A program made the translations under genes and the position numbers. The notes beneath the pieces are model-generated. The model was given only the letters and a program-made list of their open reading frames with translations, had not been told where the DNA came from and ran no database searches. Positions 28,961 to 34,792 of a stretch of 64,000 nt of DNA are shown piece after piece. Location of the stretch: assembly GCF_027594505.1 (NCBI RefSeq), contig NZ_CP115149.1, positions 1,530,503-1,594,502 of the forward strand, in the 5' to 3' direction. Origin of the DNA: Tepidiforma flava (GTDB taxonomy: Bacteria > Chloroflexota > Dehalococcoidia > Tepidiformales > Tepidiformaceae). Every line of letters begins with the position of its first letter. Within the stretch, counting starts at the first letter, position 1.

Positions 28961-28984
28961 TTAAGGAGGCGCTAAGCAGGTGCA

Positions 28985-29051
28985 TCGACAAAACCCCGAT
29001 GGCGCGTATACTCCGCGACGGCGGGTTCTATGGCAGCTATAGAACCCGCCG
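28985..29051 (+). promoter_or_regulatory. promoter and start-site hairpin of the solute-binding protein gene
   Basis: TCGACA (28985-28990) and TATACT (29007-29012) are separated by 16 bases, the best sigma-70-type match in the window. A perfect 13-bp inverted repeat follows at 29019-29051 (arm CGGCGGGTTCTAT, 7-base loop), starting where transcription should begin. It could stabilise the mRNA 5' end or be an operator. GAGGGGG at 29059-29065 is the ribosome site. Confidence 0.6.
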
Positions 29052-32201: not shown

Positions 32202-33213
32202 ATGGACGGCGCCCCCGGCTTCGAACCCCTTCCCCTCATCACCGCCGAGGAGTTCGACGCGCTCGCCCCCGAATGGGAGGCCCTCGCCGCCGCCGTCCCC
32301 GGCGCCGCGCCCTTCCACCTCCCGGCCTGGCACCGCGCCTGGCTCAGCGTCTTCGGCGCCGGGGCCGAACCCGTCGTCCTCGCCATCCGCCGCGGCGAAA
32401 CGCTCATCGGCGTCGCCGCGCTCGACCTCCAGCCCGCCGGCGCTGCGCGACCTCGGCGATCCCAACGTGCGCGACCTCGCCGGGCCGCTCGCCATCCCCG
32501 GAGAAGCGCCGGCCGTCGCCGCCGGCATCCTCGAATGGCTGCGCGAAGACTTCACCCGCGCCCTCGACGCCTGGGGCATCCCCGCCGGCGGCCCGTGGCC
32601 GGCCGCGTTCGAAGCCGCCGCCGCACGCTGGGGCTGGAGCTTCGCCGCCGAACCGGAAGCCGTCTGCCCGGGGGTCGACCTCCCGGCATCGTTCGAAGCA
32701 TTCATCGCCAGCCTCCCGAAGCACGACCGCCACGAACTCCGCCGCAAGCTGCGCAACTTCGAGGCTGCCGGCGCCGCCGCCTTCGAACGCCTCACCGGCG
32801 ACGCCGTCGCCGCCCGGCTCGGTCTGCTGTTCGAGCTGATGCGCGCCAGCAGCCCGGCCAAGGCCGCCTTCCTCACCCCCGCGATGGAGACCTTCTTCCG
32901 CGCGCTCGCCCGCGAATTCGCCCCGCGCGGCCAGCTCGCCCTCGGGCTCACCACCCTCGACGGCCGGCCCGCCGGCGTCACCCTCACCTTCGAATTCGGC
33001 GGCACCGTCTTCCTGTACAACAGCGGCTACGACCCGGCCCTCGCCCACCTCGCGCCCGGCCTCATCAGCAAAGCGTGGGCCATCCGCGACGCCATCGAGC
33101 GCGGCGTCCGCCGGTTCGATTTCCTCCGCGGCGACGAGGAGTACAAGCGCCGGCTCGGCGGCCAGCCCCGCCAGCTCCTCCGCCTCCGCCTCGAGGACCG
33201 GGCCGGCCGGTAA
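32202..33213 (+). pseudogene. CelD/BcsL-type GNAT acetyltransferase, frameshifted
   Basis: Two overlapping frames together encode one protein. The first (from ATG 32202) gives a normal N-terminus (FHLPAWHRAWLSVFG ... GETLIGVAALDLQP). The second picks up at about 32440 with LRDLGDPNVRDLAG and continues through LPKHDRHELRRKLRNFE, FLYNSGYD and RRFDFLRGDEEYKRRLGG, the FemAB/CelD-like acetyltransferase signature, to a stop at 33211-33213. The span of 1,012 bases is one more than a multiple of three, so a one-base gain (or two-base loss) near 32430-32445 breaks it. Both halves keep ordinary codon use. This may be a recent pseudogene or an assembly error. Confidence 0.72.
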
Positions 33214-33283
33214 CCTCCCGCAGGGGTCGACCGTTTCCCCCCGTGCCGCTACCGTCGAACACAGGAAGCGAAACCCCCGGAAA

Positions 33284-33379
33284 GGAGGCCCCGCGATGAG
33301 TCCCGACGGCAGTCCCGCGCTGACCGGTCCCGCCCGCGCTGCCGCGGCCGCCCGCCTCCTTTCCGCCCGCCGGCGATAA
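33284..33379 (+). CDS. 27-codon leader ORF with strong ribosome site upstream of mgtE
   Basis: AAAGGAGG at 33281-33288 is followed by a 7-base gap and ATG at 33296. The ORF runs 27 codons to TAA at 33377-33379 and begins MSPDGSPAL, then becomes Ala- and Arg-rich. The ribosome site is as good as any in the window. The position about 70 bases before mgtE and the early Pro/Asp residues recall the MgtL leader peptide of the Salmonella mgtA mRNA (recalled start MEPDPTP), where Mg2+ starvation destabilises translating ribosomes. That parallel is inference; it could also be an unrelated small protein. Confidence 0.45.
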   Translation, partial: GGPAMSPDGSPALTGPARAAAAARLLSARRR

Positions 33380-33448
33380 CGCCCGGTTCCCTCCGCGGGG
33401 AGAAGCTGGCCCCGTCCGCGGCCGCCCCAGCCCCCAAGGAGGAACCCC

Positions 33449-34792
33449 ATGACCCAGGCCATCGCCATCGACGACGTCCGCCGGCTGATCGACCGCCGCG
33501 ACTGGTTCGGCCTCCGCGCCGAGCTCGAAAGATGGAACCCCGGCGAACTCGCCGACCTCCTCGACGAACTCGACCCCCGCGAGCAGGCCCTCGTCGTCCG
33601 CCTCCTCCCCCGCGACCGCGCCTCCAACGTCATCGCGCAGGTCGGCGTCCACCGCGCCCGCCGCCTCATCGAAGGCCTCGAAGACCGCGATACCCGCCGT
33701 CTCCTCGCCTCGCTCCGCCCGGATGACCGCACGGCGCTCCTCGAAGAGCTCCCCGGCCCCCTCACCCAGCACCTGCTCAATCTCCTCCCCGCCGAGGACC
33801 TCGCCGAGGCCCGCGCCCTCCTCGGCTACCCCGAGGAGAGCATCGGCCGCGTCATGACGCCCGATTACGTCGCCGTCCGCCCCGAGTGGACCGTCGAAGA
33901 AGCGCTCGCCCACATCCGCGCCATGGCCCGCCGCGCCGAGACCGTCAACGTCATCTACGTCGTCGACCGGTCGTGGCGCCTGCTCGATGCGCTCGAACTC
34001 GCCCGCTTCATCACCGCCCGCCCCGAGCAGCGCGTCGCCGACCTCATGGACGGCCAGTACGCCGCCATCTCTGCCTTCGCCGACCGCGAAGAAGCCGTCC
34101 GCCTGATGCGCCAGTCCGACCTGCACGCGCTTCCCGTCGTCGATTCCGACAACACCCTCGTCGGCATCGTCACCATCGACGACGTCCTCGATATCGCCAG
34201 CGAAGAAGCCACCGAAGACTTCCACAAGGTCGGCGGCGTCGCTCCCCTCGATACCCGCTACCGCGATGCCAGCCTTCTCCAGCTCTACCGGAAGCGGGTG
34301 CCCTGGCTCGTCGGCCTGGTCGTGCTCAACCTCGCCTCCTCCACCGTCATCGCCGCCTACGAAGACGTGCTCGCGAGCACCATCGCCCTCGCCTTCTTCA
34401 TCCCCCTGCTCATCGACAGCGGCGGCAACACCGGCGCGCAATCCGCCACGCTCGTGGTCCGCGCGCTCGCCACCGGCGAATTCGACCGCGGCGGCTGGCT
34501 TCGCGCCTTCGCCCGCGAACTCGCCGTCGGCCTCGCCCTCGGCGCCAGCATGGCCGCGGCTGCCTCCGTTCTCGGCATCTTCCGCGGCGGGCCCGAGATC
34601 GGCCTCGTCGTCGGCATCGCCATGTGCCTCATCGTCCTCACGGCGAACCTCGTCGGCGCCGTCCTCCCCTTCCTGCTCAGCCGGCTCCGGCTCGACCCGG
34701 CCGTCGCCTCCAGCCCCCTCATCACCACCGTTGCCGACGTCGCCGGCCTCGCCATCTACTTCACCACGGCAGCCGTCATCCTCGGCGTCTGA
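33449..34792 (+). CDS. mgtE: magnesium transporter MgtE
   Basis: This 447-residue Mg2+ channel-transporter has the usual order: an N-terminal superhelical domain (residues 1-125), two CBS domains (about 130-250, VMTPDYVAV and DLMDGQYAAI), a plug helix, then five membrane helices. The pore signatures are present: IPLLIDSGGNTGAQSATL and TTVADVAGLAIYF, whose Asp corresponds to the selectivity-filter Asp in Thermus MgtE. The cytoplasmic domains normally close the pore at high Mg2+. AAGGAGG precedes the ATG. The upstream leader holds a short ORF and a possible GC hairpin; I do not see M-box (ykoK) riboswitch motifs. Confidence 0.93.
   Translation: MTQAIAIDDVRRLIDRRDWFGLRAELERWNPGELADLLDELDPREQALVVRLLPRDRASNVIAQVGVHRARRLIEGLEDRDTRRLLASLRPDDRTALLEELPGPLTQHLLNLLPAEDLAEARALLGYPEESIGRVMTPDYVAVRPEWTVEEALAHIRAMARRAETVNVIYVVDRSWRLLDALELARFITARPEQRVADLMDGQYAAISAFADREEAVRLMRQSDLHALPVVDSDNTLVGIVTIDDVLDIASEEATEDFHKVGGVAPLDTRYRDASLLQLYRKRVPWLVGLVVLNLASSTVIAAYEDVLASTIALAFFIPLLIDSGGNTGAQSATLVVRALATGEFDRGGWLRAFARELAVGLALGASMAAAASVLGIFRGGPEIGLVVGIAMCLIVLTANLVGAVLPFLLSRLRLDPAVASSPLITTVADVAGLAIYFTTAAVILGV

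Follow-up and report, generated by a model that had tools for sequence, protein, structure and literature searches.

A short open reading frame with conserved ends in the mgtE leader of Tepidiforma flava is a candidate upstream control element

Introduction

The Mg2+ transporter gene mgtE of Tepidiforma flava is preceded by a short open reading frame (ORF), and the locus raises the question whether this ORF controls mgtE and, if it does, whether its peptide or the ribosomes on it would matter. The locus lies in a stretch of 64,000 nucleotides (nt) of contig NZ_CP115149.1, referred to as the window, from a genome that consists of one contig of 2.77 Mb (G000). A sequence-only reading of the window had described a 27-codon ORF with a strong ribosome-binding site, a 7-nt gap to its start and a distance of about 70 nt to mgtE, together with a possible GGGG/CCCC hairpin, no visible M-box, and a likeness of the peptide to the Pro/Asp-rich MgtL of Salmonella mgtA. 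The analysis presented here points to a translated upstream ORF (uORF) that would control mgtE in cis, via ribosome occupancy and not via its peptide product; we consider the chances of this proposal to be about even.

Results

The features of the locus are presented in Table 1.

Table 1. Features of the mgtE leader and gene, in positions of the window.
Feature	Position	Strand	Remark
Promoter-like TCGACC-N17-TACCGT	33227-33255	+	predicted transcription start ~33262; leader ~187 nt
Ribosome-binding site of short ORF	33281-33288	+	AAAGGAGG, read from sequence; GAAAGGAGGCC invariant in three species
Short leader ORF, MSPDGSPALTGPARAAAAARLLSARRR	33296-33379	+	27 sense codons, stop TAA 33377-33379
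Perfect 12-nt inverted repeat, window only	33278-33289 / 33354-33365	+	could pair the ribosome site of the short ORF with the ORF tail
Predicted hairpin hiding mgtE ribosome site	33385-33446	+	5' arm includes CCTCC 33390-33394
mgtE ribosome-binding site AAGGAGG	33436-33442	+	GGAGG kept in three species
mgtE, divalent cation (Mg2+) transporter	33449-34792	+	447 amino acids; Pfam MgtE_N, CBS, MgtE

The arrangement described by the sequence-only reading was confirmed, with a gap of 7 nt between AAAGGAGG and the ATG and of 69 nt between the TAA and the mgtE ATG. The peptide contains 1 Asp and 3 Pro among its 27 residues. Perfect 7-nt Shine-Dalgarno (SD) sequences before a start codon were detected at 5 places of the window, 2 of which open long genes and the other 3 short ORFs of 18, 20 and 27 amino acids; taken alone, such a sequence is weak evidence for the short ORF. 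Judged by the comparison below, the ORF is above chance because it is conserved in two other species and has a promoter-like sequence upstream, and it is real and probably translated.

The leader was compared in three closely related hot-spring bacteria of the genus Tepidiforma, namely that of the window, G002 and G001. The MgtE orthologues of the latter two are 98% and 91% identical to that of the window, respectively; among named relatives, Tepidiforma sp. KatS3mg064 is the closest (L041, MgtE 98% identical). Conservation of the first codons, proposed earlier as a check, was observed in all three orthologous leaders. Codons 1-6 are ATG AGT CCC GAC GGC AGT in the window and in G002, and GTG AGT CCT GAT GCG AGT in G001; the start codons are ATG, ATG and GTG, and the ORF opens with MSPD[G/A]S in each species. 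The codons of Pro3 and Asp4 changed only silently, and Gly5 is replaced by Ala in G001. At the other end, the final sense codon is CGA, CGT or CGG (Arg in all three) and the TAA stop is invariant. Most of the differences within these kept end codons leave the amino acid unchanged (CCC/CCT, GAC/GAT, CGA/CGT/CGG). The lengths of the ORF were determined to be 27, 27 and 28 codons, which corresponds to one in-frame codon (3 nt), and the gaps from the stop to the mgtE start are 69, 69 and 72 nt, both length changes being multiples of 3.

Between the window and G002, the leader DNA around the conserved parts differs at 41 of 114 positions (36%), with 21 differences among the 60 positions of codons 7-26 and 20 in the 54 nt following the ORF. 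At the fourfold-degenerate sites of mgtE, 52 of 292 differ. When the block from the SD to codon 6 was compared with the remaining leader, the three pairs of species gave Fisher P values of 1.5e-5, 0.052 and 0.035; the pairs are not independent, and the block was picked after the alignment had been viewed. By this alignment, constraint acts on the initiation signals, the six codons and the stop, and not on the remaining peptide.

In the promoter-like sequence, the 17-nt spacer is kept in all three species, with 2-5 differences over 29 positions, and the paralogous mgtE genes of the genus have TTGACC-N17-TACGTT. The pattern TYGACN-N17-TANNNT, composed only after the promoter-like sequence had been seen, gave 2 matches in the window of 64 kb, where shuffles gave 0.28 on average; a long ORF starts 52 nt after the second match. 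The transcript predicted from this sequence therefore includes the short ORF. A transcription start downstream of the ORF, which the sequence-only reading had named as telling against it, is not suggested as far as this can be checked: the only conserved promoter-like sequence found is located upstream of the ORF. Elsewhere in the window, the start of the 20-amino-acid SD-preceded ORF at 28980 coincides with or precedes a promoter-like TCGACA-N17-TATACT (28980-29040, judged by eye), which stands before a family-5 solute-binding protein gene (29067); because of this position, that ORF is unlikely to be transcribed as a uORF.

The mgtE ribosome site is predicted to be hidden in a hairpin in all three species. 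CCTCC lies 10-12 nt past the stop of the short ORF in each of them and is predicted to pair with the GGAGG of mgtE. An apical stem of the GCTGG/CCAGC type (33405-33409/33427-33431 in the window) is likewise predicted in each species, and the intervening pairs vary; in the window these are GGGG/CCCC, so the hairpin suspected earlier is indeed predicted, with the mgtE ribosome site inside it. In the isolated hairpins, the three species gave a mean unpaired probability of 0.001, 0.001 and 0.000 for the GGAGG at 37 C, and values of at most 0.007 at 60 C. The stability of the hairpin against dinucleotide shuffles corresponded to z values of -1.0 in the window and -2.1 and -3.4 in the relatives. In a control with 26 ribosome sites of the window, where gene starts were picked by a rough rule of third-position G+C content (GC3) and SD, the mgtE site was the second most hidden. 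The whole-leader consensus fold contains five pairs changed on both sides. That fold also joins the uORF start to mgtE codons 4-6 over a long range; this pairing has two changed pairs and others broken, and was not relied on. The evidence from the predicted hairpin is modest, supportive but not compelling. In each of the three species, the short ORF is in frame with mgtE, and there is no stop between the TAA and the mgtE start (33380-33448).

In the case of the 12-nt inverted repeat, the leader was shuffled 2000 times with its dinucleotides kept, and an equal or longer repeat occurred in 8 of the shuffles. Its 3' arm is not preserved in the two relatives, and the repeat was rejected as a shared switch for this reason.

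The orthologous mgtE with its leader was found in three of six genomes of the genus (G000, G002, G001), and G003-G005 have only a distant mgtE paralogue. A DNA search of these six genomes at E<=10 gave matches in all of them; the matches were near-full-length in three (E 4.7e-139, 4.5e-58 and 5.1e-28), and the remaining listed ones were short pieces. Searches of whole genomes and contigs found no leader copies beyond the three species. The pattern AGGAGG-N4-9-RTGAGYCCNGAYGNNAGY, which was derived from these three, gave 3 matches in 294 genomes of the class, all already known, and the looser AAGGAGG-N4-9-start-NNN-CCN-GAY gave 5 matches in the six genus genomes, 3 of them being this leader ORF.

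Upstream regions of mgtE were surveyed at 79 of 80 loci (L062, with less than 150 nt upstream, was left out). An SD-preceded short ORF of any kind was detected at 17 of the 79 loci; an MSPD short ORF was present at 2, both orthologues, and at no other. The upstream DNA of the two family members with the next most similar MgtE, about 60% identical (L004/L044 and L005), is unrelated to the leader. No leader uORF was found at the 5 corA loci of the genus, the one match (L142) resembling the end of the preceding gene. The leader of the mgtE paralogues L010 and L011 is about 50 nt by eye; the uORF scan misplaced several mgtE-paralogue starts and is uninformative for those paralogues. At the mgtE locus of a member of Trueperaceae (L106), an SD-preceded short ORF with a TTG start and a Pro/Asp-rich sequence, MPAPTTDADRPPSP..., lies about 168 to 60 nt before mgtE.

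The Rfam search of the whole window at the gathering score found no M-box and no RNA family apart from one tRNA, in agreement with the earlier claim, and at E<=10 the region 33100-33600 gave only three implausible minus-strand matches. With nothing credible at either threshold, a known riboswitch in the leader was rejected. The M-box (RF00380) is absent from both the window and G000, and was found in 1 of 100 class genomes (G031). In this distant class member, a strong M-box (L124, G031:C162:13556-13719; 131.9 bits) precedes the mgtE homologue of that genome, an element that is absent from the Tepidiforma group. A scan of 20 mgtE loci detected a single strong M-box, 150.8 bits, at positions 2122-2285 of a Bacillota locus (L050).

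Directly upstream of the leader, the gene of GNAT type (Acetyltransf_6, 32202-33213) changes frame near 32440-32444. Near 32444 the window carries one base more than both relatives, owing either to a true frameshift or to a mistake in the assembly.

Discussion

The control proposed for mgtE would proceed as follows. A transcript from ~33262 would present the strong ribosome site and the 27-codon ORF, followed by the hairpin burying the mgtE ribosome site. The presence of ribosomes on the short ORF and the distance they cover would govern the 3' portion of the leader, through hairpin opening and possibly the access of Rho to C-rich RNA, and in this way the amount of MgtE; the output would be translational, through the hairpin, or via Rho, which is encoded in the genome. 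Because the initiation signals and the first six codons are conserved and codons 7-26 are not, control most likely acts at initiation or early in elongation. Mg2+ may be the signal, and is the obvious candidate since the controlled gene is a Mg2+ transporter.

A ribosome at a stop codon covers about 12 nt downstream (PMC4833913), and by the predicted geometry one at the stop of the short ORF would reach the hairpin base. According to the same source, attenuation goes with a stop-to-start gap of at least 40 bp and a reinitiation peak is proposed at 10-11 bp. The 69-72 nt of the Tepidiforma leaders are within the attenuation range and off the reinitiation peak, and close-range reinitiation was rejected on account of this gap. 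A C-terminal arrest peptide was rejected because the C-terminus is unconserved, and a peptide acting in trans is disfavoured since it would give a different constraint pattern.

Several points weigh against uORF control. The support is limited, as it comes from three closely related species only. The differences between the window and G002 in codons 7-27 are distributed 9/6/7 over codon positions 1/2/3, with no sign of coding constraint. PMC11109978 asks of a regulatory uORF that it be conserved in the manner of protein-coding DNA and that its translation affect how the main gene is expressed; in the Tepidiforma ORF the ends changed silently, and codons 7-27 lack the bias that coding DNA would be expected to have. 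The z of -1.0 for the hairpin of the window is unremarkable, and other genes of the window likewise have occluded ribosome sites. For the whole-leader consensus fold, a z of -1.65 was determined, and 11 of 200 column shuffles were equally good. Moreover, the ribosome site of the short ORF has an unpaired probability of 0.0 in the full-leader fold of the window (0.20 and 0.26 in the relatives), where it would be hidden because of the window-only 12-nt repeat.

The likeliest alternative is a short ORF which is translated or translatable without a regulatory role. The conserved stretch would then simply be a site near the promoter where ribosomes load, and the very G+C-rich leader would yield the ORF and the GC-rich hairpin as by-products. 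In agreement with this, most of the ORF is unconserved, GC-rich RNA folds strongly regardless (whole leader of the window, z -1.08), and combinations of SD and short ORF occur by chance in this DNA. However, the short ORF has preserved its SD, its start, six codons and its stop where over a third of the neighbouring leader positions differ, and the mgtE SD is occluded in three of three species. We regard this alternative as rather unlikely.

A Mg2+ sensor of the MgtL type, in which low Mg2+ would cause the ribosome to abort at Pro3-Asp4, the leader to refold and mgtE to be switched on, appears clearly unlikely. Pro3-Asp4 is kept in all three species at the same positions as in MgtL (PMC11282234, PMC6460261), and the conserved N-terminus suits a mechanism at early codons. 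The gene is a Mg2+ transporter without an M-box, and three known prerequisites of such a sensor, bL31, which matters for MgtL control (PMC11552253), EF-P and Rho, are encoded, although all three are widespread in bacteria. The weaker mgtL relative corL is likewise poor in Pro and acidic residues (PMC11552253). On the other hand, the acting residues in EPDP, the destabilising motif of MgtL, are Glu2 and Asp4, and joint mutation of these two abolishes the effect (PMC11282234), whereas the three species have Ser2, Pro3, Asp4 and Gly/Ala5. MgtL has Pro at positions 3, 5, 7 and 9 (PMC6460261); here Pro3 alone is conserved, and the Pro7 of the window is lost in both relatives. There is only one acidic residue, and outside the orthologues the survey of mgtE loci found no such ORF. 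The likeness to MgtL noted by the sequence-only reading thus stood for Pro3 and Asp4 and failed at the other positions, and "Pro/Asp-rich" was an overstatement. By the EPDP definition the short ORF is not an MgtL-type member, though it could work in a similar way.

An undescribed riboswitch-like RNA could hide the mgtE ribosome site, with the ORF being incidental, as may be compared with the mgtE motif of Thioalkalivibrio. In favour of such a structure are the hairpin over the mgtE SD, which is predicted for each of the three species, and the five consensus-fold pairs changed on both sides. It is nevertheless very unlikely: Rfam gave no match, the score of the consensus fold is low, and the best-conserved parts, from the SD to codon 6 and the stop, would be needless for a bare RNA element. 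Readthrough of the stop to an N-terminally extended MgtE is hardly credible, since the shared frame without an intervening stop in any species, the length changes in multiples of 3 and the hairpin after the stop are opposed by differences of 9/6/8 over the codon positions after the TAA, showing no coding bias, by the mgtE gene's own AAGGAGG and start, and by the rarity of stops in such GC-rich DNA.

As uORF-controlled transport genes are already known, the mgtE leader is a variant of that theme. A report of a uORF directly controlling mgtE was not found in a literature search that left out most subscription papers. If uORF control is true, such control of Mg2+ import would reach beyond enterobacterial mgtA, mgtCBR and corA to mgtE and to a phylum that is deep and thermophilic, and the genome concerned has no M-box. 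It would also test whether a minimal Pro-Asp start is sufficient for Mg2+-sensitive ribosome drop-off. If the leader holds merely an unspecified uORF, it would be a useful, ordinary example of cis-control. To the stronger reading, a peptide-coded Mg2+ sensor on mgtE in a thermophilic member of Chloroflexota, where drop-off at Pro3-Asp4 at low Mg2+ would release mgtE, we assign a small probability. Such a sensor would be convergent with enterobacterial mgtL/mgtA, but its motif would be reduced to SPD[G/A]S and its output would be translational, by the SD hairpin.

Comparison with known leader systems

The closest comparison is with systems of Mg2+ transport. As in mgtL of Salmonella and E. coli mgtA, a short ORF lies in the leader of a Mg2+ transporter gene, with Pro and Asp at positions 3 and 4 and early codons that matter. 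In contrast to mgtL, the Tepidiforma ORF lacks Glu2 and Pro5, has a single acidic residue and no alternating Pro in the relatives; the gene is mgtE instead of mgtA, and the predicted leader has about 187 nt compared with 264 nt for mgtA. The uORF corL of corA similarly has a conserved N-terminus and few Pro or acidic residues and is followed by a Mg2+ transporter gene; the more corL is translated, the less corA is expressed (PMC11552253). That transporter is a different one, and the likeness is by description, not by uORF sequence.

Leaders containing the M-box (RF00380), including those of Mycobacterium with an M-box and a uORF (PMC12810186), resemble the Tepidiforma leader in the Mg2+-related gene, the uORF and the masking of the SD, and the Mycobacterium work includes an mgtE-type M-box class (PMC12810186); unlike them, the Tepidiforma genome G000 has no M-box. 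The mgtE motif SRC-65-1 (PMC11109978) likewise stands in an mgtE leader with the SD and start at the stem base. It differs in being known from Thioalkalivibrio only and in being a riboswitch candidate, without a uORF mentioned in the available part of that paper, and was compared by description.

The mgtP/mgtM leader of mgtCBR is similar in that a cis-acting short ORF is coupled to a stem hiding the next ribosome site (PMC3641672). The proline response of mgtP, however, operates via three consecutive Pro codons, and no such run is conserved in the Tepidiforma leader. Finally, the CruR copper uORF of Bordetella is likewise metal-linked, and its control is Rho-dependent (PMC9426467).
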